NCBI GenBank assembly: GCA_007050995.1 | Contig: VJOU01000003.1 | Span: 124,001-188,000, forward strand | Reading direction: 5' to 3' | Source: Glycocaulis profundi | Lineage (GTDB): Bacteria; Pseudomonadota; Alphaproteobacteria; Caulobacterales; Maricaulaceae | DNA: 64,000 nt | Shown: piece after piece, positions 40,648-57,286 of the stretch | Position numbering within the stretch: the first letter of the stretch is position 1 | Layout of the letters: every line of letters begins with the position of its first letter | The notes under the pieces: model-generated | What the model saw: only the letters and a program-made list of their open reading frames with translations | Database searches by the model: none | What the model was told of the DNA's origin: nothing | Position numbers and translations under genes: made by a program

Positions 40648-43227
40648 TCACTCAGGACAGATCGCGTCGCCCTCGTTGGAGGCCAGCCGCACGGATTCAA
40701 AACTCAGCGCCACGGGGGCGTCGGCTTCGATCACGAAGGGCTCGGACACCGCGGAAATCTCCGTGCCCCGGTCGCGGAAGCAGGACAGGCGCACCTTGAT
40801 CTCGCCCCACTGGCCCTCGCCGGCTTCCAGCAGGAAGGGCGTCAGGTCCACCCGGCCCTCGCCCGCGCCCAGCATGACCTGGCCTTCGGGCGCGGCCTCG
40901 AGGCGGTAGCGCAGGGCCAGCGCCATCTCGCCGTTCGACTGACGGGTGAGATCGACCGGCTGGCCCGAGACCGCTGCACGGGCCTCGCCCGTGAACACAA
41001 GCGTGCGGGCGGATTCCTGCGCCGCGCCGTCCGCGGGACGGATTGCCACCGCGCCGCGGGGGCTCTCGCCGGAGGGCTCGCCCACGCGCACCTCGCCGCC
41101 CGCGTCGCGCAGCATCAGCGACCAGGGCGGCACGAAACGGCCTTCGGTGAAGTAGCGGTCGGGATTGGCCGCCTCGCCGTCCACACCGGACTCCTCGTCC
41201 AGCACGTCCACGGCCCCAGGCTCGGCATAGCTGAGCCCGTAGCCATAGGCGAAGAGCGGATCATACCCCTCCATGCCGTGATTGAGCGGGCCCTGAACCG
41301 CCGTGCGCGGCCAGGAGAAGGACAGGGTTCCGGTGAAGTCGTGGCGCGGCGCGCCCTCGGCGTCGCCGATCAGCACGTCCGCGATCCCGCCGCCTTCCGA
41401 ACCGGGCAGCCAGGCCGCCACGAAAGCGTCCGAGGCGTTCATCTCCGGGCTGGTGAACATGGGCCGCCCCGAGATGAAGACCGAGACGGTGGGGATGCCC
41501 GCCTCGCGGAAGGCGCGCAGCATCTCCAGCGGGCGGTCGTCGGTGAAGTCCAGATGCTCCAGATCGCCTTGGAACTCGGCATAGGGCGTCTCGCCGAACA
41601 CCACGACAGCGACGTCCGGCGCCTCGTCGAAGCTGCCGTCCGGGCTCCAGGCGGCACTGCCGCCCGCCTCGGTCACGGCCTGTTCGATGCCCGCCCAGAT
41701 GGACTGGCCGTTGGGGAAGTCGTCATTGGTGGTGCCCGTGCCCTGCCAGCTCAGGGTCCAGCCGCCCGAGGCCTGGCCGATGGAATCGGCGGCCTCGCCC
41801 GCGACCAGCACCCGCGCGTTCCCGGCAATGGGCAGCGCGCCGTCATTGTTCTTCAGCAGCACCAGCGACTGGCGCACCGCGTCGCGGGCCACCTCCCGGT
41901 GCTCGTCCGCGCCCAGAAGCTCCAGACGACCTTCCAGCGGGCGGCTGTCTTCAAACAGGCCCGCCTTGACCTTCACCCGCAGGATGCGCCGCACCGCCTC
42001 GTCCAGCCGCTCCATGGGGATCGCGCCGGACCGCGCCTGCGCCAGCGTGTTCTCGTACAGGGGCCGCCAGCTGTCGGGGGCCATGAACATGTCGATGCCC
42101 GCGTTGAAGGCCTCAGGGCAGCTTTCATTGGTGCAGCCCTCGATCTGGCCGTGGGCGTTCCAGTCCGACACCACGAAGCCCTCGAACCCCAGCGGGCCGC
42201 GCAGCACGTCGGTCAACAGGGTCTCGTTGCCGGTGATCTTGAAACCGTTCCAGCTCGAGAAGGAGGCCATCACCGTGAGAACGCCCGCGTCGATGGCGGG
42301 CGGGTAGCCGGCGTTGTGGATCTCGATCAGCTCGGCCTCGCTGATCGGCGCGTCGCCCTGGTCGATGCCGTCCGTGGTGCCGCCATCGGCCAGATAGTGC
42401 TTGGCCGAGCCGGAAATGCGGCCCTCGCCCAGCGGCTGGCCGGAGACCAGATCGCCCTGCAGCCCGCGGGTCACCGCGCCCGAATACATCGCGACGATCT
42501 CGGGATGCTCGCCATAGCCCTCATAGGTGCGGCCCCAGCGGTCGTCGCGGGGCACGGCCACCGTGGGGCCGAACGTCCAGTCCGCGCCGGTGGCGGCCAC
42601 CTCGCGGGCGGTGACCTGGGCGATGGCTTCGATCAGCTCGGGATTCCGCGCCGCGCCCAGCCCGATATTGTGCGGGAAGATGGTGGCGCCGATGACGTTG
42701 TTGTGCCCGTGGACCGCGTCGATGCCGAAGATGAGCGGGATGGCCGCGCCCTCGCGCGCCGCGGCCGCCTCGCGGAAGGCCCGCGCCAGCGCGACCCAGT
42801 CCTCTCCGCTCGCCCAGTTGCGCCCGCCCGGCGCGGAATTGCCCCCCGCCAGGATCGAGCCCAGCGGATAGCGCGCCATGTCCTCGGGCGTGAAGGCGGA
42901 GATGTCGGCCTGGATGGTCTGACCCACCTTCTCCTCCAGCGTCATCGAGGCGAGCAGCTCGTCGATGAAGGCCTCGGTCTCGGCGTCCGTGATCGCGTCG
43001 GGCGTGGCCGCCGTGGGCCAGACGTCCGGGTTGGCGCGCGCTTCGGCGGGTGTCTCCAGCCGCGCGATCTCCGCGCCGCCAGGGGCGTCGCCGGGCGCGG
43101 ACGTCTCCGCGGGCGCGGCCTCCTCGGCGGGCGGCGGGGCCTCCCGGGGCACGTCGGCGGGGTCGCAGGCGGTCAGGCCCAGCGCCAGAGCGCTGGCGGA
43201 GACGGTCAGGATGGCGATGCGGCTCAT
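40648..43227 (-). CDS. Glycoside hydrolase family 3 lipoprotein (exo-beta-glucosidase/xylosidase)
   Basis: Protein of 859 residues exported as a lipoprotein (lipobox L-T-A-C, Cys21) with an acidic Ala/Pro/Glu linker to about residue 60. The GH3 TIM barrel has 'EEKVGQTIQADISAF', 'DDRWGRTYEGYGEHPEIV' and 'SAKHYLADGGTTDGIDQGD'. The nucleophile Asp lies in 'GFVVSDWNAHGQ'. The second alpha/beta domain has 'SLVLLKNNDGALPI' and 'VVVFGETPYAE'. An extra C-terminal beta domain of about 150 residues follows, as in ExoP-type beta-glucanases. It would release single sugars from oligosaccharides at the outer membrane or in the periplasm. It follows the cupin gene by 13 bases. Confidence 0.92.
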   Translation of the reverse strand: MSRIAILTVSASALALGLTACDPADVPREAPPPAEEAAPAETSAPGDAPGGAEIARLETPAEARANPDVWPTAATPDAITDAETEAFIDELLASMTLEEKVGQTIQADISAFTPEDMARYPLGSILAGGNSAPGGRNWASGEDWVALARAFREAAAAREGAAIPLIFGIDAVHGHNNVIGATIFPHNIGLGAARNPELIEAIAQVTAREVAATGADWTFGPTVAVPRDDRWGRTYEGYGEHPEIVAMYSGAVTRGLQGDLVSGQPLGEGRISGSAKHYLADGGTTDGIDQGDAPISEAELIEIHNAGYPPAIDAGVLTVMASFSSWNGFKITGNETLLTDVLRGPLGFEGFVVSDWNAHGQIEGCTNESCPEAFNAGIDMFMAPDSWRPLYENTLAQARSGAIPMERLDEAVRRILRVKVKAGLFEDSRPLEGRLELLGADEHREVARDAVRQSLVLLKNNDGALPIAGNARVLVAGEAADSIGQASGGWTLSWQGTGTTNDDFPNGQSIWAGIEQAVTEAGGSAAWSPDGSFDEAPDVAVVVFGETPYAEFQGDLEHLDFTDDRPLEMLRAFREAGIPTVSVFISGRPMFTSPEMNASDAFVAAWLPGSEGGGIADVLIGDAEGAPRHDFTGTLSFSWPRTAVQGPLNHGMEGYDPLFAYGYGLSYAEPGAVDVLDEESGVDGEAANPDRYFTEGRFVPPWSLMLRDAGGEVRVGEPSGESPRGAVAIRPADGAAQESARTLVFTGEARAAVSGQPVDLTRQSNGEMALALRYRLEAAPEGQVMLGAGEGRVDLTPFLLEAGEGQWGEIKVRLSCFRDRGTEISAVSEPFVIEADAPVALSFESVRLASNEGDAICPE

Positions 43228-43240
43228 GGCGGGTCTCTCC

Positions 43241-44263
43241 TCAATGTCCCTGGAGCTGGCGGACCAGCGAATTGGCCAGATAAGCGCGGACGCGGTGCTG
43301 GTTCTCGTCCGTCATCGGCCCCTGTATCCCCTGCCCCTGCGCGGGCAGGTGCGCGGCGGCGGCGTCGGGTCCGTCGAAGACGAAATGTTCAAACAGGGCG
43401 CGGAACGCCTCCCGCCGCGGCGCAGGCAGGTCGCGCACGCCCAGCATGGCGTGGACCATCGCCTCGAAGGCGGTTCCCGTGCCCATGGGCGAGGGGTCCC
43501 ACCAGTAATTGACCAGCGCGTTGAACGGATCAAGCGAGCGCACGTGGTGCCACCACAGCGCGGGAATATAGATCGCGTCGCCCGGCTCCAGATCGGCGGT
43601 CAGGGCGTGGCCCAGCGCCGTCTCGAAGCGCGGATGGCGGTCGAAGTCGGGATCGTCGGGATCGGCCATGGACACCGGCTGGCCCGCGATGGTGCGGTCC
43701 AGCGGCCCGACATAGAGGTTTTTCGCCTGCTCGGGCGGGAACAGGGTGAAGCGCCGCCGCCCGGCGGCCACCACCGCGATGTTGTCGGACAGGTCGTAAT
43801 GGGTGGAGACCGTGATCGCGTTGCCCAGCCACAGGCGCGGCTCGACGCCGGACGGCACGAGGCCGAGCCCGTGGCCGGCCTGAAAGCCCGGTGCGATCTG
43901 CGGCGCGGGAACCGAACCCATGTAGAGCGCGGGCGGCTCGGCCATTTGCGCGGCGGCGGCGAGGTCGGCCACGAAGCCCGCCAGTCCGCTCTGCCGCCGC
44001 TCGAAATTGAAACCCGTCATGGACGGGTCGTAGAAGAACCGGCCTTCGATGGCGGGCGGTCCCACGAACACCTCCGCCACCGCGCCCGCGTCCAGCGCGG
44101 ACAGGGCACGCCCCGCCTCGGCGGGGCCGCGCAGGGCGGCCTGCACCAGCGGCCAGTGCGCGGCGGCGTCTTTCAGGACCGCGGGCGCGTAGCCCGGCGC
44201 GATCTCTTCGCGGAAGGTCTCCGCATCGGCCTCGCGCCAGACCCTGACCGCGCCTGAGGTCAT
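43241..44263 (-). CDS. JmjC/cupin-like domain protein
   Basis: Protein of 340 residues of the cupin_8 (JmjC-like Fe(II)/2-oxoglutarate oxygenase) family. The metal site is visible as H-x-D in 'STHYDLSDN' near residue 155 and the distal His in 'IPALWWHHV' near residue 240. 'AAGRRRFTLFPPEQAKNLYVGPLD' is the typical strand after the first metal ligands. There is no signal peptide, so it is cytoplasmic. Such genes recur with TonB receptors and tryptophan-halogenase-like genes in Caulobacterales and Xanthomonadales; the substrate is unknown, possibly protein side chains. The start overlaps the GH10 stop (ATGA), so it is translated with the xylanase. Confidence 0.85.
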   Translation of the reverse strand: MTSGAVRVWREADAETFREEIAPGYAPAVLKDAAAHWPLVQAALRGPAEAGRALSALDAGAVAEVFVGPPAIEGRFFYDPSMTGFNFERRQSGLAGFVADLAAAAQMAEPPALYMGSVPAPQIAPGFQAGHGLGLVPSGVEPRLWLGNAITVSTHYDLSDNIAVVAAGRRRFTLFPPEQAKNLYVGPLDRTIAGQPVSMADPDDPDFDRHPRFETALGHALTADLEPGDAIYIPALWWHHVRSLDPFNALVNYWWDPSPMGTGTAFEAMVHAMLGVRDLPAPRREAFRALFEHFVFDGPDAAAAHLPAQGQGIQGPMTDENQHRVRAYLANSLVRQLQGH

Positions 44264-45411
44264 GCCGGACGCGGCTCGGCGGCCCGGATGGCGTCCGCGA
44301 TGGCCTGACGCAACGGTTTGGGCCGGTAGTCCTCGTCATAGGGCGTGGGCCGCTTGGGCAGGCCGTCCTCGCGCAGCCACATGCCCTGATACCAGGACAG
44401 ATGATCGGCCATGCCCCAGACGAGGATGTCCTTGGTCTGGGGGTAGGAGAACATCAGGTCCAGATAGCGCCGGGCCAGCTCGGCCACCTCACGGTCGCGG
44501 GTCTCGATGTCGGCGGGCAGGTTCTTGTCGTGCACGTCGAACTCGGTGATCGACAGGCTCAGATCCAGCCCGGTCACCGCGTCCAGGAACTGCCGCCAGC
44601 CATCCGCGCGGGCGGTGTCGAATCCGGTCGAGTAATCGTAATTGCCTGAGCCGATATGGCTCTGCACGCCCAGCCCGTCGACCGGCGCGCCGCGCTCCTT
44701 CAGCCGCTCGAGCAGGCGCAGAACGCCCTCCTGCTGGCGTTCGTATCCCGCCTCCCAGCTCATGTAGTCGTTGTAGAGCAGCTCCGCGTCGGGGTCGGCT
44801 TCCTTGGCGACATGGAAGGCGATGTCGATCACCTCTTCGCCCAGATGCTGGGAGAGCGGGGTCTGGCGCAGGCGGCCCGCCTCGTCGATGGTCTCGTTGA
44901 CCACGTCCCACGAATAGATCCGGCCCCGATAGCGCTCGACCAGCGTGCGGACGTGCTCGGTCAGCATCCGCTCGGCCTCGGTCCCGGGGCGGGAGCCGAA
45001 ATCATGATTGGCGAACCAGTCGGGGAACCAGTCGGTATGGTGCCACAGCAGGGTGTGACCACGCATCTCCATGCCGTTCTCGGCGGCGAAGTCCATCACC
45101 ATGTCCGCGGGCCGGAAATCGAAGGTCTCCGCGTCGGGCCGCGCGACATACCATTTGAGCTCGTTCTCATGGACCAGCACGCCGCACTCGCGGATCAGAA
45201 GCTCGCGGTAACGCGCGTCATGGAAGGACGAGGCCAGAGAGTCCGGGTCGCCCACGCCCACCGCGCTGCCGAACCGCATCCCCTTCTCCTGCGCCAGCTC
45301 GTGCAGGGAGGGGCCTTCGAAAAAGTCCTCGGCGAAGCCGCGCGGGGCGGCCATGGCGGCGAGCCCGCCCGCGGCGAGCATCAGGGACTGGCGTCGGGTC
45401 AGCATGGTCAT
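44260..45411 (-). CDS. Endo-1,4-beta-xylanase, GH10
   Basis: Enzyme of 383 residues cutting the xylan backbone. A twin-arginine-like N-terminus ('TRRQSLMLAAGGLAAMAAP') suggests Tat export. The GH10 barrel has 'VHENELKWY', 'RGHTLLWHH', the acid/base Glu173 in 'WDVVNE', 'LYNDYMSWE', 'GLGVQSHIG', and the nucleophile Glu290 in 'SITEFDVHD'. The last block 'ILVWGMADHLSWYQG' is where most GH10 enzymes have 'TVWGVTD.W'. No CBM. It is the first gene of the GH10-cupin-GH3 unit, downstream of the TonB receptor but separated from it by a terminator. Confidence 0.94.
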   Translation of the reverse strand: MTMLTRRQSLMLAAGGLAAMAAPRGFAEDFFEGPSLHELAQEKGMRFGSAVGVGDPDSLASSFHDARYRELLIRECGVLVHENELKWYVARPDAETFDFRPADMVMDFAAENGMEMRGHTLLWHHTDWFPDWFANHDFGSRPGTEAERMLTEHVRTLVERYRGRIYSWDVVNETIDEAGRLRQTPLSQHLGEEVIDIAFHVAKEADPDAELLYNDYMSWEAGYERQQEGVLRLLERLKERGAPVDGLGVQSHIGSGNYDYSTGFDTARADGWRQFLDAVTGLDLSLSITEFDVHDKNLPADIETRDREVAELARRYLDLMFSYPQTKDILVWGMADHLSWYQGMWLREDGLPKRPTPYDEDYRPKPLRQAIADAIRAAEPRPA

Positions 45412-45510: not shown

Positions 45511-48500
45511 TCAGAAGGTGCCGCGCACGATGAAGGTGAAGCGGCGGTCGTTCATGAACCACGAGCGGGGCGCGGTCAGCAGATCGTTGTTCAGGACCTG
45601 GCTGGTGCGGGTGACCTCATTGGTCAGGTTCACGCCCTGCACCCCGATGCGGACATTTTCGTTCACGGAATAGAAGATCGAACCATCCAGCTGGCCGCTG
45701 CTCTCCTGGATGATCGGCGCGAAGGGCACGATCACGTCGCGCACCGTCACCACGAAGTCCGATCGCCAGGCATAGGCCGCCCTCAGCGACCACGGTCCCT
45801 TCTCGTAGAAGCCGGCGAAGTTGGCCGTGTGCTCGGACAGGCCCTGCAGCGGCAGCAGGCTGGTGTCCACGTTGGCGACCAGGCCGGCGGACACGTCCGG
45901 GTCGGTGGCGTTCAGCGTGCTCTGCTCCACCCCGTCGGAGTCCACGTAGGTGTAATTGGCGCTGATCCCCAGCCCGTCGAACGGTTCGGGAAGGAAGTCG
46001 TAGGTCTGCTGGTAGGCGAGTTCGAAGCCCCGCACGGTGCCCGTGCCTTCGGCGTTCATCGGCATCGACACGACCGCGTCGAAGGAGGCTCCGTTGTTGG
46101 TGAAGGTCTCCAGCGTCGTCGCGTTCGTGTGCACGTCGGTCAGACGCTTGTAGAACAGCGACAGGGTCACCGAACCGACCTCGGCGAAATACCATTCCGC
46201 GGCCAGGTCGACATTGTCCGCCTTGATGGGCCGCAGATAGGGATTGCCCACCCCGAACCGGCCCCGCGGCCGTCCGTCGACGATGTCATCCGCGCCGGTT
46301 TCAAGCGTGATGTTGTAGAAATTGCGCGTCAGGCCGATGTCAGGCGGCGTGATCGCCCGCGACAGGCCGAGACGGAACTGCAGACCGTTGTCCAGCCGCA
46401 GCAGGCTGTTGAAGCTGGGCAGCCAGTGATCCTGCGAATACGTGGCGTCATTATTGACCAGCGCCCCGTCCTGGAAGGCCCTGGCGTCGGCCCGGACCTG
46501 AGGATCGAGGGCGCAGAAGGCGGTCAGCTCCTGATCAGGATCGGCGGCCTGATTCGCGCAGCCTGCCTCGGTCTGGAAGCTCTGGTTCTGGAAGGCGATA
46601 ACGCCGGGGGATTCACGTTCCACCGAAACGTATCGCACGCCGATATTGCCGCTCAGCCGCATGCCCGCGCCCAGGTCGCCGCCGAAGCGGAGCATGGCGT
46701 AGGCCGCGTCGGTCTCTTCGCGCATCGGGTTGATTTCCTGGGGCCGGTAAACACCCTCGGTCACGCCGCAGCGCTGGCCCAGCGGCACCCAGTCGACCGA
46801 GCAGCCGAATTCATCGATCTCGCCATCGCGCCAGGCGATGCCCGTGGCGTAGTCGATCAGCTGGTTGTAGCGGTCGATGGTGTTCTGCCCCCAGAACAGC
46901 CGGGAGTCGGCACCCGTGGGCACAGGAACCTCCCCGCGCATGAAGTTGTCGAAATCGAAGGCTTCATGGTATTTCGCCAGCTGGCCCACGCCCGGGCGGG
47001 CGCCGTCCAGCCAGACCGGCCCCCCGCCGCCCCACTGTTCGGAGATGACGCCCCAGTTGTACTGGGAGAAGCGGGTGGTCTGATTGCGGATCGACCGCCG
47101 GGCGCCGACCCGGACCGAGTCCAGCCAGCTGCCTTCGTCGAACGAGTAGTCCGCATCGAAGCGGAAGGCGTCCAGCGTGCCCTCGCTGTTTTCGAAATGG
47201 TCCATCGCCGCACGGGAGAAGGAGTTGTAGGGGTCGGAATAGCTTTCATTGCCCGCCTGCCGGTACTCAGGGCACTGGGCCCCGGTCTCGGGGTTGGGAG
47301 CGGTGCACAGCGTTCCGTCTTCGGCGCGGCGCGGCAGGGGCAGGAAGTTCACGATCGGAATGTCGTCGCCGCGAAGCTGGATTTCCACGTCCTGATAGGT
47401 CGAGTTCCACAGGCCGATGTCCCGGACGTCGACGGTGGAGTCCACGTGCTGGTAATCGAAGTTGAACGACCAGCGGTCGTCCGGCGTCCAGCGGAAGTTC
47501 AGGCCGTAATCGGTGGTCACGTAATCCTGGACCACGTCGCGGCGGATATTGTTGCTCTGCAGGCCCCATGCGGGCGTGCGCGCGCCGGGACCGGGATCGA
47601 ACTGGCCGTCGCGCCAGCCGGTGTTGTCGCTTGTGATGGCGCCGCGGGTGAACACGCCGTCGGGACCGAACTCAAGCGTCGTGCCCGGGATGGCGCGGGA
47701 GTCGCCGTTGTCCGCCACGTTGTCGGTGGCGATCTCGATGGCGCGCTCGGTCCAGGCCTGGCGCGAATCCGAGCGCAGGAACTGGGCGGTCGCGACCATG
47801 GTGCGGTCGGGGCTGCGCCATTGGCCCGAGGCGCCGATGCCGGTGCGCTCGCGCTCGAAGATCTGGCTGCGGAAGGCCGCCCCGCGGGGGAACCAGACCG
47901 ACCCCACCTCGGTGTCGCCGTCGCCGGGGACCACGTCATTGTTCGAATACAGGGCGCGCGGTCCGAAGTTGGATATCTGCTGGCCGTCGGAGCGCGCGAC
48001 GAGCTCTGAATGCACCGCGTTGATCAGGAAGCCGAACTCGCCCGCGTTGTTCGTCTCGAACCGGTCGGAGAACAGCACCGAGGCCGTCGGCGCCCAGCGT
48101 TCCGCGAAGTCGCCGTAACTGCCTTCGATGGAGCCCGCGATCACCCGACCCGACGCGTCGAAGGGCACGCGGGTGCGCAGGTTGATCGTGCCGGAGATGC
48201 CGCCCTCGATCAGGTCCGCGGACGGGCTTTTATAGACGTCCACGCCGCCCATCAGCTCCGAAGGCACGTCCGAGAAGCTGAGCACCCGGCCGTTGTTGGC
48301 GCTGAAGGTGTCGCGCCCGTTGAGCTCGGAACGCACCCAGGTCAGGCCGCGCACGACCACGCCAGAGCCCTCGATGGAGAAGTGGTCGGGATCCACGCCT
48401 GCGCGGAAGCGGTCGATGGACACGCCCGGCACGCGCTGGAGCGCTTCGGTCACCGAGCGGTCGGGCAGCGCGCCGATGTCCTCGGCGGTGATCGCGTCCA

Positions 48501-48753
48501 CGACGACTTCGGAGTCGCGCCGGATCGTCTGGGAGGACCGCAGGCTGGACCGGATCCCCTGAACCTGGATGACCTCGATCCCGGCCTGCGGATCAGCGGC
48601 CTCTTCATCCTCCTGAACCGCCTGCTGGGTCGTGACCGCCTGCTGCGCGGCCGCCGCGCCGGAAAGCATGGCCGCGAGCGCGATTGCCGAGGCCCCGCCC
48701 ATCCAGTGCACGGCGGATTTTCGGCGCAATTGTCCCGTGGTTTCGTCCGACAT
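45511..48753 (-). CDS. TonB-dependent receptor (TIGR01782 type)
   Basis: Outer-membrane active importer of 1080 residues. The long N-terminus has a signal-peptide core 'ASAIALAAMLSGAAAAQQ', then a TonB-box-like 'GIEVIQVQGIRSSL', the plug domain ('VVVDAITAEDIGALPDRSVTEALQRVPGVSIDRF') and a large beta barrel ending in an aromatic residue. This sequence type is typical of carbohydrate receptors of Caulobacter, Xanthomonas and Sphingomonas. With GH10, GH43, GH3 and GH9 around it the ligand is most likely xylo- or gluco-oligosaccharide; this is inference from context. GGGGAGGA is 7 bases before the ATG. Two LacI-type dyads lie 30-67 bases upstream. Confidence 0.93.
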   Translation of the reverse strand: MSDETTGQLRRKSAVHWMGGASAIALAAMLSGAAAAQQAVTTQQAVQEDEEAADPQAGIEVIQVQGIRSSLRSSQTIRRDSEVVVDAITAEDIGALPDRSVTEALQRVPGVSIDRFRAGVDPDHFSIEGSGVVVRGLTWVRSELNGRDTFSANNGRVLSFSDVPSELMGGVDVYKSPSADLIEGGISGTINLRTRVPFDASGRVIAGSIEGSYGDFAERWAPTASVLFSDRFETNNAGEFGFLINAVHSELVARSDGQQISNFGPRALYSNNDVVPGDGDTEVGSVWFPRGAAFRSQIFERERTGIGASGQWRSPDRTMVATAQFLRSDSRQAWTERAIEIATDNVADNGDSRAIPGTTLEFGPDGVFTRGAITSDNTGWRDGQFDPGPGARTPAWGLQSNNIRRDVVQDYVTTDYGLNFRWTPDDRWSFNFDYQHVDSTVDVRDIGLWNSTYQDVEIQLRGDDIPIVNFLPLPRRAEDGTLCTAPNPETGAQCPEYRQAGNESYSDPYNSFSRAAMDHFENSEGTLDAFRFDADYSFDEGSWLDSVRVGARRSIRNQTTRFSQYNWGVISEQWGGGGPVWLDGARPGVGQLAKYHEAFDFDNFMRGEVPVPTGADSRLFWGQNTIDRYNQLIDYATGIAWRDGEIDEFGCSVDWVPLGQRCGVTEGVYRPQEINPMREETDAAYAMLRFGGDLGAGMRLSGNIGVRYVSVERESPGVIAFQNQSFQTEAGCANQAADPDQELTAFCALDPQVRADARAFQDGALVNNDATYSQDHWLPSFNSLLRLDNGLQFRLGLSRAITPPDIGLTRNFYNITLETGADDIVDGRPRGRFGVGNPYLRPIKADNVDLAAEWYFAEVGSVTLSLFYKRLTDVHTNATTLETFTNNGASFDAVVSMPMNAEGTGTVRGFELAYQQTYDFLPEPFDGLGISANYTYVDSDGVEQSTLNATDPDVSAGLVANVDTSLLPLQGLSEHTANFAGFYEKGPWSLRAAYAWRSDFVVTVRDVIVPFAPIIQESSGQLDGSIFYSVNENVRIGVQGVNLTNEVTRTSQVLNNDLLTAPRSWFMNDRRFTFIVRGTF

Positions 48754-48782: not shown

Positions 48783-48796
48783 TGTTAGCGCTAACA
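48783..48796. promoter_or_regulatory. LacI-type operator upstream of the TonB receptor (site 1)
   Basis: TGTTAGCGCTAACA, a perfect 14-base palindrome with the central CG of LacI-family sites, 30 bases before the receptor ATG. It shares the core TAGCGCTA with the GH9 and GH43 sites. Confidence 0.75.
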
Positions 48797-49040: not shown

Positions 49041-50567
49041 ATGTCAGACAATTCAGACAGCAAGGTGAGACGCGTGCTCATCGTGGGGGGCGGCACGGCG
49101 GGGTGGATGACCGCCGCGGCCCTGTCGCACGGCCTGCGCGGAACCGGCGTCAGGATCGAACTTGTCGAATCAGAAGCCATCGGAACCGTCGGCGTGGGCG
49201 AGTCCACCGTGCCCCATATCCGCTATTTCAACCAGACGCTGGGGATCGACGAGGCGGGCTTCATCGCCCGCACCCGCGCGACGATCAAGCTGGGCATCGA
49301 GTTCCGGAACTGGGCACGCGAGGGCGACGCCTACATCCATCCGTTCGGGGCCTATGGCGAGCCCGATGGCGGGCCGGACTTCCATCACCAATGGCTGCGC
49401 CTGGGCGGGCCGGAGACGATGGGGCCCATCGACCAGTGGTCCCTGCCCATCGCCATGGCCAAGGCCGAGCGCTTCGCCCCGCCCTCTGACGAACCCGGCG
49501 CGCTGGCGTCCACCTATTCATACGCCTACCAGTTCGACGCCGCGCTCTACGCCCGCTATCTGCGCGAGTTCGCCGAGGCGCGGGGTGTGGCGCGCACGGA
49601 GGGACGCATCCTCGACGTGGCGCTGGATCCCGAGACCGGCGACGCCAGCTCGGTCACGTTGGAGAGCGGCCGTCGGATCGAGGCGGACCTGTTCGTGGAC
49701 TGCTCGGGCTTCCGCGGGCTGATCATCGAACAGGCCATGAAGACCGGCTATGAGGACTGGTCGCGCTGGCTGCCCTGCGACCGGGCCATCGCCATCCCCA
49801 GCGCCTCCACCGACGCGCTGCCCCCCTACACCCGAGCGAGCGCGACCGAGGCGGGCTGGGTCTGGCGCATCCCGCTCCAGCACCGGGTCGGCAACGGGCA
49901 TGTCTATGCCAGCGCCTTTATGGACGACGCCCGCGCCGAGGGCCTGCTGATGACCGCGCTGGAGGGCGAGGCGCTGGCCCCGCCCAACCGGCTGCGCTTC
50001 CTGGCAGGCAAGAGAAAGCTGCAATGGAACCGCAACTGCGTGGCCATCGGGCTGGCGAGCGGTTTCCTCGAGCCGCTGGAATCCACCTCCATCCACCTGA
50101 TCCAGGCGGCGGCGGGTTACCTGCTGGACCTGTTCCCAACCGGCGACGGGGACGAGGCCGCCCGGGACGAGTTCAACCGGACCATGGCGATGGAATACGA
50201 GCGGGTGCGCGACTTCCTGATCCTGCACTATCACGCGACCGAGCGGGACGACACGCCGTTCTGGAACCACGTCCGCACGATGGAGATCCCAGACTCGCTG
50301 GCCTCGAAGATGGCCCTGTTCCGCGAGCGCGGCTCGGTGGCGGGCTATGAGCACGGCGTCTTCCTCGAACCCAGCTGGGTCGCGGTCTATCTGGGCCAGC
50401 GGATCATTCCCGCCCGGCACGATCTCGCCGCGCTGGCCGTGCCTGAAGCCCACGCGCGCGAGCGTGCGCGCGCGCTGAAAGACGAGATCGCCGCGCTGGC
50501 CATGCGCCTGCCGCTGCACCGGGACAGGGTGGGCGCGCCCCGCGCCACCGCGGGGTCGGCGGCATGA
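49041..50567 (+). CDS. Tryptophan 7-halogenase family protein 1
   Basis: FAD-dependent halogenase-type protein of 508 residues. The nucleotide-binding motif 'GGGTAGW' is at residues 16-22. The Lys that carries the active halogen in this family is Lys83 in 'TIKLGIEFRNW', the second signature 'GWVWRIP' is at 272-278, and the catalytic Glu is Glu347 in '[11 protein letters not shown]'. All catalytic elements are therefore intact. It starts an operon of four homologues (spacing -4, -4 and +11 bases). A flavin reductase partner was not found in the window. The substrate is unknown; tryptophan or indole-like compounds are the family norm, but clusters beside TonB receptors have no established substrate. 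Confidence 0.9.
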   Translation: MSDNSDSKVRRVLIVGGGTAGWMTAAALSHGLRGTGVRIELVESEAIGTVGVGESTVPHIRYFNQTLGIDEAGFIARTRATIKLGIEFRNWAREGDAYIHPFGAYGEPDGGPDFHHQWLRLGGPETMGPIDQWSLPIAMAKAERFAPPSDEPGALASTYSYAYQFDAALYARYLREFAEARGVARTEGRILDVALDPETGDASSVTLESGRRIEADLFVDCSGFRGLIIEQAMKTGYEDWSRWLPCDRAIAIPSASTDALPPYTRASATEAGWVWRIPLQHRVGNGHVYASAFMDDARAEGLLMTALEGEALAPPNRLRFLAGKRKLQWNRNCVAIGLASGFLEPLESTSIHLIQAAAGYLLDLFPTGDGDEAARDEFNRTMAMEYERVRDFLILHYHATERDDTPFWNHVRTMEIPDSLASKMALFRERGSVAGYEHGVFLEPSWVAVYLGQRIIPARHDLAALAVPEAHARERARALKDEIAALAMRLPLHRDRVGAPRATAGSAA

Positions 50568-52066
50568 GCGCGCCGGCCATCCTGATCGCGGGGGGCGGCA
50601 TGGCGGGCTGGACCACCGCCCTCGCCCTCGCCCGGCCCTTTCGCGGAACCGGCGCCCGGATCGCCGTCATCGACACGCCCGGTCCCGACGTCTCGCTCGG
50701 CCCCCTCGCCCCGGCCATCGCCACCCTGCCCTCGGCGCAGGACGCGCACTGGGCGCTGGGCCTGCCCGAGCACCGCGTGGTCCGAGCGGGCCGCGGCGCC
50801 TACCGGCTGGGGGAATTCTGGCGGGGCTGGGACGGACGGGAGGCCGCCGCCTTCCTGCCCTTCGGCGAGGTCGGCGCGGACATCGGCGGGGTGCGCTTCC
50901 ACCAGCAGGTCGCGCGGCTGCAGGCCCTGGGCGAGACCGCCTCGCTCGCCGATCACGCCCTGTCCTCGCTCGCCGCCGCCGCGGGCCGGTTCGCCATTCC
51001 GCCCCACGATGCGGCCGACATCCGCGCCACCCTCGATCACGGCCTGCATCTTGACGCGGAGGCTCTGACCGGCGCTCTGCTGCGCCCCGTCGCGCTGGCC
51101 ATGGGCGTGACGCGCATTGAGGGCGGCATCGGGGAGGTCGAGCTGTGCACGGACGGCCTGATCGCGGCGCTGCGCCTTGATGACGGGCGGCGCGAGACCG
51201 CCGACCTGTTCATCGACGCCACCGGCCCGGACGCCCGCCTGATCGGCGCGCTGGAGGCGGCGTGGGAGGACGAGGCGGCGTGGGAGGACTGGGCCGCCCT
51301 GTCGCCCTTCGACCGCGCCGCCGCGGTCATCCGGCCCGACACCGCCGAGCCCGCCCCCTTCACCCGCGACGCCGCCCATCCGTGGGGCTGGCGGCGGACG
51401 ATGCCGCTGAACGGCGCGCGCGGCGAGATCGTCATGTTCGCCTCGCGCCACATGAAGGACGAGCGGGCGTCGCAGATGATGGGCGGCGCCGAGCCCGCGG
51501 CTGTCACGTCCGGACGGCGGCTTTCCCCCTGGACCGGCAACTGCGTGGCCGTCGGCGCGGCCGCAGCCATCCCCGACCCGCTGGCCTCGGCGGAGCTGGC
51601 GCTGGTCCATGCCGCGGCCCTGCGCCTGGCCCGCCTCGTGCCCTGGCCGGGCGGCTGGCGGGCGGAGGCGGAGGAGTTCAACCGGCTGTGGCGGCACGAG
51701 ACGGAGTCGGCGCGCGACTTCGCCCTGCTGCGCCACCTGCTGAATCGCCGCCCCGAGAAGGTGTGGGCAGCCGCCCGCGAGGCGTCCGCGCCCGAGCCGA
51801 TGGACCGGCGTCTCGCCCTGTTCGCCGCGCGCGGGCGCATCATCCGCACCGAGCACGGGCTGTATGACGACGCGCTGTGGGCGCGGGCCTTCATCGCGCT
51901 GGGCGCCAGACCCCGCCATCACGACCCGCTGGCCGACGGGCTGGACGCCGGGATGCTCAAGGCCCGCTCGGCCCGCATCCGCGAGCTCGCCGCCCGGGCC
52001 GCCGCTTCCATGCCGCGCCACGGCGACTTCCTCGCCCGCGTGAACGCCCAGGACGGACCGCGATGA
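50564..52066 (+). CDS. Degenerate tryptophan-halogenase-like flavoprotein
   Basis: Protein of 500 residues, clearly homologous to its neighbours at the N-terminus ('ILIAGGGMAGWTTALAL') and in overall layout, but diverged. The 'FKLGIEF' Lys motif is replaced by a 'VRFHQQVARLQ' region without an equivalent Lys. 'GWxWRIP' is altered to 'WGWRRTMPL'. 'FLEPLESTS' has become 'IPDPLASAE', losing the catalytic Glu. It overlaps both flanking genes by 4 bases and has no stop codons or frameshifts, so it is kept as a protein. It may bind flavin and serve as a structural or regulatory partner of the active homologues; this is inference. Confidence 0.85.
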   Translation: MSAPAILIAGGGMAGWTTALALARPFRGTGARIAVIDTPGPDVSLGPLAPAIATLPSAQDAHWALGLPEHRVVRAGRGAYRLGEFWRGWDGREAAAFLPFGEVGADIGGVRFHQQVARLQALGETASLADHALSSLAAAAGRFAIPPHDAADIRATLDHGLHLDAEALTGALLRPVALAMGVTRIEGGIGEVELCTDGLIAALRLDDGRRETADLFIDATGPDARLIGALEAAWEDEAAWEDWAALSPFDRAAAVIRPDTAEPAPFTRDAAHPWGWRRTMPLNGARGEIVMFASRHMKDERASQMMGGAEPAAVTSGRRLSPWTGNCVAVGAAAAIPDPLASAELALVHAAALRLARLVPWPGGWRAEAEEFNRLWRHETESARDFALLRHLLNRRPEKVWAAAREASAPEPMDRRLALFAARGRIIRTEHGLYDDALWARAFIALGARPRHHDPLADGLDAGMLKARSARIRELAARAAASMPRHGDFLARVNAQDGPR

Positions 52067-53580
52067 GAGACCCTGACGCCATCACCAAGGTCGTCATCGT
52101 GGGCGGCGGCACGGCGGGCTGGATGGCCGCCGCGGCCCTGTCGCGCATGTCGGGCAGCGGGCTGATGGAGGTCACGCTGGTGGAGTCCGACGCCATCGGC
52201 ATCGTCGGCGTGGGCGAGGCGACCATCCCGCCCATCCGCCATTTCAACGAGATCATCGGCATCGACGAGCGCGACTTCATCCGCGCCACGCAAGGTGCCT
52301 TCAAGCTGGGCATCGAGTTCCGCGGCTGGACGCGGCCCGGCCACCGCTACATCCACCCGTTCGGCCCCTATGGCGCGGACATCGGCGCGGTGAAGTTCCA
52401 CCAGCACTGGCTGCGCATGCGGGCCGTGGGCCGGGCGGCGGACATCGAGGACTATAATCTGTGCGCGGTCGCGTCGCGCCAGGGCCGGTTCGGGCCCGTC
52501 GCCCCCCAGGCCCGCTCCCCCCTCGCCCAGCTTCACTGGGCCTATCATTTCGACGCTTCTTTGTATGCGAAGTATCTGCGCGCCTTCTCCGAAGCCCACG
52601 GCGTCGTCCGCCGCGAGGGCCGGATCACGCGGGTCCATCAGCGGGCCGAGGACGGTTTCATCGAGGCCGTCGAACTGGAGAGCGGCGAGCGGGTGGAGGG
52701 CGAGCTGTTCATCGACTGCTCGGGCTTCCGCGGCCTGCTGATCGAGCAGACCCTGAAGGCGGGCTACGAGGACTGGACCGGATGGCTGCCCTGCGACCGG
52801 GCGATGGCGGTGCCCTGCGCCCATGGCGCGGAGGGGCTGACGCCCTACACCCGATCCACCGCCCGCGAGGCCGGCTGGCAGTGGCGCATCCCGCTCCAGC
52901 ACCGGGTCGGCAACGGATACGTCTATTCCAGCGCGCACATCTCAGACGACGAAGCCACCGCGACCCTGCTCGCCAGCCTCGAAGGCGAGGCGCAGGCCGA
53001 TCCGCGCCCCCTGCGCTTCACCACCGGCCAGCGCAAATCGGCCTGGGTGAAGAACTGCGTGGCGCTGGGACTGGCCTCGGGCTTCCTGGAGCCGCTGGAG
53101 TCCACCTCCATCCACATGATCCAGACCGGCATCACCCGGCTGCTGCACCTGTTCCCCGATCGCGGGTTCGATGCGCGGGGGATCGCCGAATACAACCGCC
53201 TGACCGCCCGTCACGCCGCGCAGATCCGCGATTTCATCATCCTGCACTACCACGCCAACCAGCGCGCCGGAGAGCCCCTGTGGGACGCCTGCCGGACGAT
53301 GGCGGTCCCCGACAGCCTGCAGCGCAGGCTCGACCTGTTCCGCCTGAAGGGCCGGATCAGCCGGGACGAGGACGAGCTGTTCGCCGAGCCCAGCTGGCTC
53401 GCGGTCTATCTGGGACAGGAGGTGGTTCCCGAAGGCTGGGATCCCATCGCCGACGCCGCCCCGGCGGACGACATCGCCGCCGCGCTGGAGCAGGTCCGCA
53501 ACGCCGTGCTTGCCGGAACGGCGTCCATGCCGCTTCATTCAGACTTCATCGCCCGGCACTGCCGCGCGCACGCCGCCTAG
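52063..53580 (+). CDS. Tryptophan 7-halogenase family protein 2 (catalytic)
   Basis: Protein of 505 residues with a complete set of motifs: 'GGGTAGW' near residue 16, '[11 protein letters not shown]' with the halogen-carrying Lys near residue 83, '[15 protein letters not shown]' near 272, and '[11 protein letters not shown]' near 345 with the catalytic Glu. The start overlaps the stop of the degenerate homologue (ATGA); upstream in-frame sequence is a shadow. It is most similar to the next gene, with long identical DNA blocks, indicating a duplication. Confidence 0.9.
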
Positions 53581-53591
53581 GGGGAGGGTTC

Positions 53592-55097
53592 ATGTCAGAC
53601 GCGCGCATCCGCAAGATCGTCATCGTGGGCGGAGGGACCGCCGGCTGGATGACCGCCGCCTGCCTCTCGCGCCTGCTGGGCGAGGACTATGCCGACATCA
53701 CGCTGGTGGAATCGGACGCCATCGGAATCGTGGGCGTGGGCGAGGCGACCATCCCCCAGATCAGGATTTTCAACGAGCTGCTGGGGCTGGACGAAGACGA
53801 TTTCATGCGGCGCACCCAGGGCTCGTTCAAGCTGGGCATCCAGTTCATCGACTGGGGGCGCAGGGGCCACACCTATTTCCATCCCTTCGGTCCGTTCGGC
53901 GTGGACATGCTGGGCGTCAGCTTCCACGCCTACTGGCTGAGGATGATGCATGCGGGCCGGGCCGATCCGATCACGGATTTCTCCCTGCAGTCGGTCGCCG
54001 CCGAGCGGGGCCGCTTCATGCGCCCGATCAAGGCGGGCCAGTCGCCGCTGTCCAACATCGCCTACGCCTTCCATTTCGACGCCGCGCTGTATGCGAAATT
54101 CCTGCGCGAATTCTCCGAAGTCCGGGGCGTGACCCGCCGCGAGGGCAAGGTGGTCCAGGTCCATCAGCGCGGCGAGGACGGCTTCATCGAGGCCGTCGAG
54201 CTGGAAAGCGGCGAGCGGATCGAGGGCGAGCTGTTCATCGACTGCTCGGGCTTCCGCGGCCTGCTGATTGAGCAGACCCTGAAGGCGGGCTACGAGGACT
54301 GGACCCACTGGCTGCCCTGCGACCGGGCGATGGCGGTGCCCTGCGAGCACGGCACGGGCGAGTTCACCCCCTACACCCGCTCGACCGCCCGCGAGGCGGG
54401 CTGGCAGTGGCGCATCCCGCTCCAGCACCGGGTCGGCAACGGATACGTCTATTCCAGCCAGCACATCTCCGACGACGAGGCCGCGGCCACCCTGCTGGCC
54501 AATCTCGACGGCGAGGCGCTGGCCGATCCGCGCCCGCTGCGCTTCGTGACCGGGCGACGCAGATCGGCCTGGGTGAAGAACTGCGTGGCGCTGGGGCTGG
54601 CCTCGGGCTTCCTGGAGCCTCTGGAGTCCACGTCGATCCACCTCATCCAGTCGGGCATCGCCCGGCTGATGGCCATGTTCCCCGACCGCAGTTTCGATCC
54701 GGCGACCATCGCGCGCTACAACCGCGTGGTGAAGCGCGAGTTCGAGCAGGTCCGCGACTTCATCGTCCTGCACTACAACGTCACCGAACGCGACGATACG
54801 GCCTTCTGGGACCATGTGCGCACCATGGACGTGCCCGACAGCCTGCAGGAGAAATACGACATCTTCGCCCACACCGGCCGGGTGTTCCGCGAGAACGAGG
54901 AGCTGTTCAACGACACCAGCTGGTTCGCGGTGATGATCGGCCAGGGGATGAAACCGGCCGCCTACGACCCGATGGCGGACGTGATCAGCCTCGACGAGAC
55001 GGAAAAGCGCCTCGCCCACATCCGCGAGACCATCTCCAACTCCGCCGACTACATGCCCACCCACACCAATTTCATCGGCCAGAACTGCGCGGCGTAG
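53592..55097 (+). CDS. Tryptophan 7-halogenase family protein 3 (catalytic)
   Basis: Protein of 501 residues with 'GGGTAGW' near residue 15, '[11 protein letters not shown]' carrying the catalytic Lys near residue 81, '[15 protein letters not shown]' and '[11 protein letters not shown]'. GGGGAGGG precedes the ATG at 53592 by 3-4 bases; a much longer in-frame opening upstream is a shadow of the previous gene. The substrate-facing middle region ('[12 protein letters not shown]', 'SNIAYAFHF') differs from its neighbour, so the paralogues may act on different sites or substrates. Confidence 0.9.
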
Positions 55098-55106
55098 GAG
55101 TTTCTC

Positions 55107-55514
55107 ATGGACGCAAGCCACCGCGCTGATGCGGAAACCCACATCGAGACGTATCGGTCCAGATATGGCATCGAAATCGATTTGGAACTCTACGATCTCA
55201 CCCCGGAAAACTGGGCCGCAAATTACATACCGTTCCACGACACAGCAGGCTGCTATCTTTTCTATTCTGAGGATGGCGACCTTCTCTATGTCGGGAAAGC
55301 CTCGCTCAAGAACAATCTGGGCCGCCGCATCGACAGCTACTTCCAAAGCAACCCTTTCGCGCCGCACCCCCACCACCGCTGGAGCGCCCCGCCGCGTTAT
55401 GCTCTGGTAGTGAAGGTCGCAGAGCCTTGGGAAGCTCCATCTCTGGAGGAATACCTGATCGCCAAGCTCAATCCCCGCGACAACACGCTCGGGATCAAAC
55501 CTCCCCCCGCCTGA
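55107..55514 (+). CDS. GIY-YIG nuclease family protein
   Basis: Protein of 135 residues. The GIY-YIG core is visible as 'GCYLFYSEDGDLLYVGKAS' (G-x-Y ... L-Y-V-G), the Arg in 'LGRRIDSYF', and the metal-binding Glu with its usual context in 'LEEYLIAKLNPRDN'. A catalytic role in DNA cleavage is plausible but the protein lacks any extra DNA-binding domain. GGAG lies about 7 bases before the ATG. Its base composition is visibly more AT-rich than the genes on both sides, which suggests recent acquisition. Function within this locus is unclear. Confidence 0.8.
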   Translation: MDASHRADAETHIETYRSRYGIEIDLELYDLTPENWAANYIPFHDTAGCYLFYSEDGDLLYVGKASLKNNLGRRIDSYFQSNPFAPHPHHRWSAPPRYALVVKVAEPWEAPSLEEYLIAKLNPRDNTLGIKPPPA

Positions 55515-55551: not shown

Positions 55552-55565
55552 TGATAGCGCTAACA
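55552..55565. promoter_or_regulatory. LacI-type operator upstream of GH43
   Basis: TGATAGCGCTAACA, 32 bases before the GH43 ATG, identical to the minus-strand reading of the GH9 site and one base from the receptor site. A TTGAAA hexamer directly precedes it (55546-55551), so it would cover the promoter spacer. Confidence 0.7.
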
Positions 55566-55597: not shown

Positions 55598-57286
55598 ATG
55601 AGACCCATCCGCACGTTGATGGCGGGCTGCGCGCTCGTCGCGCTGGCCGCTCCGGCCTTCGGCCAGCAGGCCCGGTTCGAGCAGTTCCGCTATGCCGGCG
55701 CCGACCCGGTCCACGCGGAGGTCTCCGCCGGCCCCGGCGAATATCTCAACCCGGTGCTGGCGGGCTTCTATCCCGATCCGAACATTCTTCAGGTGGGCGG
55801 CGACTACTACATCACCACCTCCACCTTCGCCTATTTCCCCGGCCTGCCGATCTTCCATTCCACCGACCTGGTCAGCTGGACCCAGATCGGCAACGCGCTG
55901 GACCGCGAGGACATGGTCGATTTCGGCGATCTGGGCCTGTCGCGCGGCATCTTCGCGCCCGCCATGGCCCACCATGACGGCCTGTTCTACATGCTCAACA
56001 CCTGCGTGGACTGCGGGGACAATTTCCTGATCACCGCGGACGATCCCGCCGGGCCGTGGTCGGAGCCGGTCTGGCTGCCCGATCTGGCGGGCGGCATCGA
56101 TCCCTCCCTTTTCATCGACGAGGACGGCCGCGCCTTCCTGCTCAACAACGGCCCGCCCGACCGCGAGCCCGAATATGACGGCCACCGCGCGGTCTGGATC
56201 CAGGAGTTCGATCTCGACACGCTGCAGACCTTCGGCCCGCGCACGGTTCTGATCGACGGCGGGGTGGACTTCTCCGAGCAGCCGATCTGGATCGAGGGGC
56301 CGCACATCTACAAGGTGGATGGCGAATACTTCCTCATCGCCGCGGAGGGCGGCACGGCGGTCAACCATTCCCAGGTCGTGCTCAAGAGCGACCGCCCCGA
56401 CGGCCCCTACGAGCCGTGGGAGGGCAATCCGATCCTGACCCAGCGCGATCTCGATCCCGACCGCCCCCACCCCATCACCTCGGCGGGCCACGCCAGCTTC
56501 GTGACCACGCCCTCGGGCGAATGGTGGTCCACCTTCCTGGCCGTCAGGCCTTATGAAGGCGACAGCTACAACACCGGGCGGGAGACCTTCCTGATGCCCG
56601 TGCGATGGGAGGACGGCTGGCCGGTGATGACCGAAAAGGGCGAGGAGATTCCCTACGTCCACGCCCGCCCCGACCTGCCCGAGGCCGAGGCGCCGCCCCT
56701 GCCCACCACCGGCCCGTTCGAGGTCGAGGAGGACTTCTCCGGCCCCGAGCTCGGCCCCCACTGGATGAGCTTCCGGCGCGGCCATCAGGACTGGGCCGAT
56801 CTGAGCGAGCCGGGCGTTCTGGTCCTGACCGCGCGCGCCGAGGGGCTGGGCCACAACGCCAGTCCCTCCTATGTCGGCCGCCGCCAGCAGCACATCCACG
56901 CCGAGGCGTCCGTGGCCGTCAGCTTTGCGCCCGAGGCCGAAGGCCAGCGCGCCGGGCTCGCCTGGGTGCAGAGCGATGAATACTGGTACGCGCTGACCGT
57001 GGCGCGGCTGGACGGTGAGGACATCATCGCGCTCGAACGCCGCGCCGGGCCGGACGAGGATCGCGACGGCGACCTGATCGCCTCCGCCCCCCTGCCGGTC
57101 GAGGCCGGCCAGACCGTCCACTTCCGGGCCGTGGCCCGCGCGGACGAATACGACTTCCTCTACAGCGCGGACGGTGAAGACTGGACCATGCTGGAAGAAG
57201 GCGCGGACGGCACGATCCTGTCCACCCATGTCGCGGGCGGCTTCGTCGGCGCCACCATGGGTCCCTACGCCTACGCCCCGGAGTGA
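55598..57286 (+). CDS. Glycoside hydrolase family 43 (beta-xylosidase/arabinofuranosidase type)
   Basis: Secreted enzyme of 562 residues with a signal peptide (cleavage near residue 22). The five-bladed GH43 propeller has the three catalytic acids: Asp60 in 'FYPDPNI' (base), Asp168 in 'GIDPSLF' (pKa modulator) and Glu233 in 'WIEGPHIY' (acid). A C-terminal concanavalin-like domain of about 190 residues follows ('VEEDFSGPELGPHWMSFR' onward), as in GH43 beta-xylosidases. It should trim xylo-oligosaccharides made by the GH10 xylanase. GGGAGGACGAGG precedes the ATG. It has its own LacI-type operator. Confidence 0.92.
   Translation: MRPIRTLMAGCALVALAAPAFGQQARFEQFRYAGADPVHAEVSAGPGEYLNPVLAGFYPDPNILQVGGDYYITTSTFAYFPGLPIFHSTDLVSWTQIGNALDREDMVDFGDLGLSRGIFAPAMAHHDGLFYMLNTCVDCGDNFLITADDPAGPWSEPVWLPDLAGGIDPSLFIDEDGRAFLLNNGPPDREPEYDGHRAVWIQEFDLDTLQTFGPRTVLIDGGVDFSEQPIWIEGPHIYKVDGEYFLIAAEGGTAVNHSQVVLKSDRPDGPYEPWEGNPILTQRDLDPDRPHPITSAGHASFVTTPSGEWWSTFLAVRPYEGDSYNTGRETFLMPVRWEDGWPVMTEKGEEIPYVHARPDLPEAEAPPLPTTGPFEVEEDFSGPELGPHWMSFRRGHQDWADLSEPGVLVLTARAEGLGHNASPSYVGRRQQHIHAEASVAVSFAPEAEGQRAGLAWVQSDEYWYALTVARLDGEDIIALERRAGPDEDRDGDLIASAPLPVEAGQTVHFRAVARADEYDFLYSADGEDWTMLEEGADGTILSTHVAGGFVGATMGPYAYAPE

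Follow-up and report, generated by a model that had tools for sequence, protein, structure and literature searches.

The 64,000-nucleotide stretch of the Glycocaulis profundi assembly GCA_007050995.1 examined here (contig VJOU01000003.1, positions 124,001 to 188,000; hereafter the window) contains four open reading frames (ORFs) arranged in tandem on the forward strand between positions 49041 and 55097, each of which matches the flavin-dependent halogenase (FDH) family PF04820 over nearly the full length of the profile, with scores of 298–685 bits. These genes, designated FDH1 to FDH4 for cassette positions 1 to 4 (p1 to p4), account for all PF04820 matches in the assembly. FDH1 and FDH2 overlap by 4 bases, as do FDH2 and FDH3, and FDH3 is spaced from FDH4 by 11 bases. 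A TonB receptor gene matching TIGR01782 lies ~288 bp from FDH1 on the opposite strand and is divergent from it. The initial annotation, made from the letters of the DNA alone, had described four tandem halogenase-family genes in an operon divergent from a TonB receptor, and the profile searches confirm this arrangement.

The catalytic Lys, the WxWxIP motif, and the catalytic Glu of variant A FDHs are all present in FDH1, FDH3, and FDH4; FDH1, for example, has GGGTAGW, K, WVWRIP, and EPLEST. FDH2 lacks this set, as K is replaced by R, WxWxIP by WRRTMP, and EPLEST by DPLASA. One member had been called degenerate in the initial annotation. This holds for the motifs of FDH2 only; its reading frame is open and full-length and, as the data below show, the gene is not decayed but is a conserved and selected neighbor of FDH1.

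Three sets of related loci were assembled. A family scan of 137 genomes, of which 89 have a PF04820 match above the cut-off, revealed many clusters in which one FDH is followed by a gap and then by two more (FDH-gap-FDH-FDH). Set 1 consists of the window and 20 regions picked for this pattern or for four tandem genes. Set 2 comprises the best 80 of 586 loci from a contig search that used 17 aligned p4 genes of cassettes as the query; L084, a copy of L064, was dropped. Set 3 contains 20 further clusters from family listings, 19 with at least two FDHs on the same strand, plus L222 with a single listed gene; in these clusters, gaps were frequently visible before selection. All 21 set 1 loci are four-gene cassettes adjoining a TonB receptor. 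In set 2, p1 is present in 21 loci and a defective FDH follows it in 21/21; in set 3, p1 is found in 18 of the 20 clusters, again with the defective gene next (18/18), after which L211 (a near-copy of L210) and L214 (on the same contig as L146) were dropped as duplicates. This leaves 58 distinct p1 loci: 21 picked by pattern, 21 from the position-4 similarity scan, and 16 from the further tandem clusters. L086 and L100, in which p2 is at the contig edge and p1 would lie beyond the contig, are excluded from this count. The p1-bearing loci of set 2 include some from Sphingomonas, Caulobacter, Asticcacaulis, Parvularcula, Gilvimarinus, Cellvibrio, and Aestuariibacter, genera of the Alpha- and Gammaproteobacteria. 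A class-level scan with a p2-alignment profile matched 24 of 289 genomes at 1e-60; active FDHs match this profile as well, and the scan therefore gives no count of p2 genes.

The motif pattern of the window recurs throughout these loci. In set 1, all three motifs are present in 63/63 genes of positions 1, 3, and 4, while gene 2 has WxWxIP in 0/21, EPLES in 0/21, Glu at the catalytic column in 2/21 (L081 and L083), and Lys in 4/21. Across all sets, no p2 ORF among the 58 combines the three motifs: 47 are without K, W, and E, five keep Glu only (L081, L083, L110, L118, and L221), five keep Lys only, and the least degraded member, that of L087, lacks Glu alone and retains K and WxWxIP. This last gene (L087:6929-8443) is the defective member of a five-gene cassette, and may be an intermediate or a separate loss. 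The three motifs are complete in 58 p1, 51 p3, and 56 p4 genes of the p1-bearing loci, with three FDH genes cut by contig ends, among them the p4 of L221, set aside from the motif counts. The 51/51 value for p3 is partly a product of the classification rule, since the defective genes of L087, L110, L118, and L132 have p3 as their best model and were classed as p2 by their place and low score. In the 60 loci without p1, the motifs are complete in 70 of 74 FDHs, the exceptions being L115, L096, and L126 (Lys and Glu retained), together with the p2 at the contig edge of L086. A single FDH is found in 49 of the best 80 of 586 loci, with all three motifs in 48 of the 49.

To describe what p2 has lost and kept, we used the 100 alignment columns conserved at ≥95% in the p1, p3, and p4 genes of set 1, counting a column as lost if the residue is found in ≤25% of p2 rows and as kept at ≥60%. 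By this measure, 41 columns are lost, including E40, S41, G45, G48, and E51 of the flavin adenine dinucleotide (FAD) loop, K80, W273–I275, and E345–S348. The losses cluster in the FAD loop, at the Lys, and in the WxWxIP and EPLESTS segments; the functional labels on these columns follow the FDH literature. The 29 columns that are kept are mainly Gly, Pro, Trp, and other hydrophobic or structural residues.

The position of the defective gene is constant. It lies directly downstream of p1 in 58/58 loci, with an ORF gap of ≤25 bp or an overlap, and its open frame spans 368–602 amino acids in every one. The remainder of the cassette is less rigid. Four FDH genes are present in 50 of the p1 loci, five in one, and three in seven (L088, L093, L103, L131, L142, L151, and L156, each without p3 or p4). 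In L213, p4 has relocated across the receptor, and in L137 and L145 facing, convergent p3-p4 and p2-p1 pairs flank a Cupin_8 gene instead of forming one unbroken cassette, a rearrangement that leaves p1 with p2. The two are separated in 0/58 loci, and the examined stretches of L090 and L218 contain p3 and p4 and neither p1 nor p2. As an observation on the wider family, tail-to-tail FDH pairs recur (L222; G123:C85:3928-6874), and the pair of L222 is intact and adjoins a TonB receptor.

The initial annotation had named a phylogeny of receptor-linked halogenases as a check, and in a tree of 84 genes they do group by cassette position: p2 is a single clade (100/100), as are p1 (94/88) and p4 (90/95), and p3 is paraphyletic. 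The order within p2, where branches are long, is unsure. In a wider, quick tree of 229 genes, from which sequences with <400 aligned amino acids were left out, the p1 clade has a support of 99 and contains only cassette genes, and 40 p2 rows fall to one side of a branch whose support is 97. The clade with p4 includes 37 of the 49 single FDHs of set 2. The ratio of nonsynonymous to synonymous substitution rates (dN/dS) for p2 is 0.54 when the window is paired with L065 and 0.15–0.31 in eight other pairs. These values are 1.5–5.5 times those of the partner genes, and exceed every partner in all nine pairs, of 12 compared, in which dS was unsaturated. By this estimate, p2 is under purifying selection although it evolves faster than its partners. 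The AlphaFold model of FDH2 (window copy) has a mean predicted local distance difference test score (pLDDT) of 93.1 and a predicted template modeling score of 0.92, and is closest to BrvH (6frl) with a template modeling score of 0.91, which shows that the predicted protein has the FDH fold; the pLDDT of the FDH1 model (window copy) is 88.9. FDH2 therefore presents the picture of a selected pseudoenzyme, combining constant co-occurrence with an active-type homologue and loss of the catalytic residues with retention of fold and selection.

A TonB receptor lies within the examined stretch in 57 of the 58 p1 loci, L216 being the exception, which bears out the conserved linkage in related genomes that the reading in the initial annotation called for. 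In set 1, 19/21 receptors are divergent from gene 1, and those of L077 and L082 face gene 4 instead. The surroundings vary, and include loci with genes for glycoside hydrolase families GH10 and GH43, like the window, loci of a GH3 type, and loci with Cupin_8; four-gene cassettes also stand beside TonB receptors in examined stretches without a GH10 match. One genome (G076) has two cassettes, each of which, receptor included, groups by locus type. The distances among receptors correlate with those among cassette genes (Mantel r, n = 30) at 0.85 for p1, 0.73 for p2, 0.87 for p3, and 0.90 for p4. The partial correlation of p4 with the receptor is 0.80, 0.84, 0.76, and 0.69 when GH10, Cupin_8, GH3, and GH43, respectively, are controlled for (n = 11, 13, 16, and 9), and that of p4 with these same genes, controlling for the receptor, is 0.16, 0.29, 0.48, and 0.59. 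GH3 correlates with p1 and p2 less than the receptor does. In these small samples, p4 thus appears to track the receptor best, and p1 and p2 do not clearly do so. Comparison of 95 linked receptors with 21 unlinked ones, the latter drawn from the window's own family only, reveals signature residues, such as D433 in 99% versus 14%, and a Trp content of 1.55% versus 1.10%. In a quick receptor tree, the linked receptors form mainly two clusters, with two unlinked ones nested inside.

Considering these results, we favor, with a probability of roughly 0.42, the interpretation that the four genes constitute a receptor-linked halogenation cassette with three catalytic FDHs (FDH1, FDH3, and FDH4) and an obligate noncatalytic FDH2 that is the partner of FDH1. 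The catalytic parts of FDH2 have been lost, yet the gene is kept right beside FDH1 in many relatives, which suggests that it may be a functional partner subunit and not a copy in decay. We infer a heteromeric FDH1-FDH2 enzyme as the simplest reading of the constant pairing; in it, FDH2 would not turn over but would position the substrate or regulate FDH1. A LacI-type regulator belonging to the locus would induce the cassette together with the receptor, and the intact FDHs would act on electron-rich aromatic groups in a large ligand that is made or taken up with the receptor. Reduced FAD (FADH2) would be supplied by a flavin reductase encoded elsewhere in the genome; none turned up among the scanned neighbors, and no genome-wide search aimed at a flavin reductase was made.

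Several observations weigh against this interpretation. FDH1 and FDH2 are translationally coupled, and their lasting linkage may for this reason be partly mechanical, though couplings in the cassette other than that of p1 with p2 have broken in some loci. The defective gene of L087 falls on the active-gene side of the wider tree, so that a common origin for every defective member is unproven. Large gaps between the motif columns occur in 7/58 p2 genes, so that a region rather than single letters has been lost there, and the motif calls for diverged p2 genes rest on sequence alignment. The receptor signal also holds for p4 only: beyond p1, p2 does not track the receptor (partial Mantel -0.08), and Cupin_8 correlates with p2 better than the receptor does (0.69 versus 0.41, n = 13). 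GH43 likewise exceeds the receptor (0.95 versus 0.90 for p1 and 0.94 versus 0.84 for p2, n = 9), and GH10 is level with it or slightly above (0.95 versus 0.95 for p1 and 0.88 versus 0.86 for p2, n = 11). No Trp, Tyr, or Phe is universal in the 95 linked receptors, the best being a Trp found in 72%, versus 19% of the 21 unlinked. Finally, most of GxGxxG is retained in p2, and flavin binding or another activity is therefore possible.

This last point leads to the alternative that FDH2 has gained other chemistry and acts as a different catalyst, such as a hydroxylase or oxidase, before or after FDH1. The full FDH fold predicted for the window copy and the purifying selection would suit an enzyme, as would retention in most p2 rows of GxGxxG plus the Asp and Gly of the FIDATG segment, and there are weak NCBIfam matches, far below the cut-offs, to QhpG and LodB, FDH-like relatives that act on proteins. 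The FAD-loop residues listed above are lost, however, and the invariant polar residues of p2 (D218, N326, and N373) appear to be shared with active FDHs (D217, N330, and N377), so that no new site stands out. We consider this alternative rather unlikely, and retain a noncatalytic FDH2 as the preferred reading.

The features surrounding the cassette are collected in Table 1. To its left lie GH10, Cupin_8, GH3, and GH9 genes, and to its right a GIY-YIG ORF and GH43. A homologue of the GIY-YIG ORF, which lies between FDH4 and GH43, occupies the same spot in L064, and no match was found in L065 and L066.

Table 1. Coordinates of the halogenase cassette and neighboring features in the window
Feature	Position	Strand	Basis
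GH9 cellulase-family glycosidase	38690..40519	+	PF00759, 327 bits
Putative LacI-type operator, same palindrome, within first codons of GH9 ORF	38727..38740	.	palindrome match
GH3 glycosidase, ExoP-type C-terminal domain	40648..43227	-	PF00933, PF01915, PF18559
Cupin_8 (JmjC-like) protein	43241..44263	-	PF13621, 210 bits
GH10 endoxylanase-family enzyme	44260..45411	-	PF00331, 294.8 bits
TonB-Xanth-Caul receptor, divergent from cassette	45511..48753	-	TIGR01782, 711 bits (cut-off 310)
Putative LacI-type operator, palindromic, receptor-FDH1 gap	48783..48796	.	exact TGTTAGCGCTAACA
FDH1 (p1), halogenase	49041..50567	+	PF04820, 623 bits; 508 aa; motifs intact
FDH2 (p2), pseudo-halogenase adjoining FDH1	50564..52066	+	PF04820, 298 bits; 500 aa
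FDH3 (p3), halogenase	52063..53580	+	PF04820, 658 bits; 505 aa; all motifs
FDH4 (p4), halogenase	53592..55097	+	PF04820, 685 bits; 501 aa; all motifs
Small GIY-YIG ORF immediately 3' of FDH4	55107..55514	+	PF01541, 31 bits
Putative LacI-type operator, same palindrome, upstream of GH43	55552..55565	.	palindrome match
GH43 beta-xylosidase-type glycosidase	55598..57286	+	PF04616 + PF17851

The glycan setting proposed in the initial annotation is well founded, given these flanking hydrolases and an operator that the cassette has in common with other sugar genes. The palindrome TGWTAGCGCTAWCA, a pattern read off two sites in the window, has three exact matches there, compared with 0.16 expected at ≤2 mismatches. 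Genome-wide, at ≤1 mismatch, it is found in eight places (seven exact and one with one mismatch) versus 0 for the reversed control. Of the five sites outside the window, one is at a LacI gene and an FAA-hydrolase-type ORF, another is at a SASA-type esterase, and the remaining ones adjoin GH3, G6PD, and a TonB receptor divergent from major facilitator superfamily (MFS) and GH43 genes. The palindrome is thus common to the cassette gap and to other xylan and sugar genes, as in a XylR/LacI-type regulon, and co-regulation of the cassette with xylan use is therefore likely, as far as operator sites can indicate it. The operator is nearly identical to the xyl-box TGGTAGCGCTAACA of the Xanthomonas XylR-type LacI regulon. 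That regulon of xylan loci includes a receptor; the one in this genome is putative by comparison, read from the operator and the LacI gene beside one site. The exact copy at 38727–38740 falls in the signal-peptide codons of GH9, so that the start annotated for this ORF, or the way repression would work there, merits attention. A crude scan of the receptor-FDH1 gaps of set 1 found TGnTAGCGCTAnCA in the window, L064–L066, and L074–L076, and different palindromes elsewhere, such as TGATAACGTTATCA in L073; several gaps are without any. A peptide precursor gene in this gap was considered as a general feature and rejected, the gap being 91–310 bp in the 19 of 21 set 1 loci with the divergent layout.

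A further alternative is that the cassette halogenates plant phenolics (ferulate or lignin fragments) freed from glucuronoarabinoxylan. The operator is common to the cassette, GH9, GH43, the esterase, and other sugar genes; within the genus, cassette and GH10 are both present in 2/6 genomes and both missing in 4/6; and in loci of the xylan type, p1 and p2 are tracked by GH43 and GH10 no less closely than by the receptor. The initial annotation had proposed a plant phenolic among the possible targets. A tie to xylan or plant phenolics does not hold up in the wider survey, where the same four genes stand beside TonB receptors in examined stretches without a GH10 match, some of them with different palindromes, and p4 follows the receptor better than it follows GH10. 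We regard halogenation of plant phenolics as unlikely. The cassette itself is not xylan-specific, because it adjoins TonB receptors of several locus types in Alpha- and Gammaproteobacteria.

Since glycan loci of different kinds have the cassette alongside their receptors, and also because the nearest solved relatives have open sites (PMC7336383, PMC5945002), we weakly favor a polypeptide, such as a receptor precursor or another protein of the locus, over a free plant phenolic as the substrate. The more specific proposal that FDH1-FDH2, with FDH3 and FDH4, halogenates aromatic residues of the TonB receptor or of another locus protein is distinctly unlikely as it stands. Cupin_8 (JmjC-like) genes recur close to receptor-linked FDHs in many set 2 loci. 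The Cupin_8/JmjC-like fold includes protein hydroxylases, and by analogy this recurrence would fit a role in protein modification.

A third alternative is that the product of the cassette is a diffusible halogenated small molecule, used in competition at the polymer, and that the receptor is merely co-regulated. Antibiotics are commonly halogenated, and three FDHs with intact motifs would be suited to this task. We scanned 72 of the 239 ORFs within 3.5 kb of receptor-linked FDHs (141 after a limit of two per locus); the commonest families are LacI (5), MFS (5), alpha-amylase (4), and DUF6445 (4). Biosynthetic genes are absent from this sample, whose recurrent families are mostly sugar enzymes, LacI, and MFS proteins, and we find this alternative quite improbable. 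The four DUF6445 (PF20043) proteins among the 72 scanned neighbors are recorded here as a separate observation. Finally, that FDH2 is a functionless, decaying duplicate is hardly credible: its motifs are lost and it evolves faster than its partners, but with an open frame always directly after p1 in 58/58 loci, dN/dS <1 in all nine computed pairs, and a confident predicted fold for the window copy, we rejected pseudogene debris as an explanation.

The receptor-linked cassette with a noncatalytic partner has relatives among known systems. FDH genes adjoining TonB receptors are already known. KtzQ and KtzR of the kutzneride pathway are tandem tryptophan halogenases, both active, that act sequentially on tryptophan; two FDHs of one pathway occur there, but with no known pseudoenzyme or link to a receptor. 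To our knowledge, the FDH family has so far been studied as stand-alone enzymes, and we know of no natural substrate for the BrvH-type halogenases. The best solved match of FDH1, FDH3, and FDH4 is 9luq, a tryptophan halogenase of Pseudoalteromonas sp. L11, and that of FDH2 is BrvH. BrvH, from Brevundimonas sp. BAL3, is among the two closest solved relatives of FDH1, FDH3, and FDH4 and has the same three motifs. The part of its description consulted reports a single active enzyme that brominates indole at a low 2.5 mU/mg, with doubt expressed about indole as the natural substrate, loss of activity in K83A, and a site likened to that of the peptide-acting MibH (PMC5945002). The position of K83 is R in FDH2. 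The same part notes a further FDH gene upstream of brvH and mentions no pseudo-partner (PMC5945002). Xcc4156 from Xanthomonas campestris (6y1w), the third-best solved match of FDH4, FDH1, and FDH3, has an open site; the catalytic Lys is exposed in both BrvH and Xcc4156, and no cassette or partner is mentioned in the portion of that report consulted (PMC7336383). In the open-licence literature, with subscription papers outside the search, we found no description of a conserved cassette that includes an obligate pseudo-halogenase.

If the cassette is a protein halogenase, regulated protein halogenation would be a routine step of glycan uptake in many Proteobacteria. Should FDH1 depend on FDH2, expression of one gene alone would miss the real enzyme and its substrate, and testing FDH1 and FDH2 as a pair would make the question of the BrvH-type substrate tractable. 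A conserved pseudo-halogenase would add a noncatalytic subunit to the FDH family.

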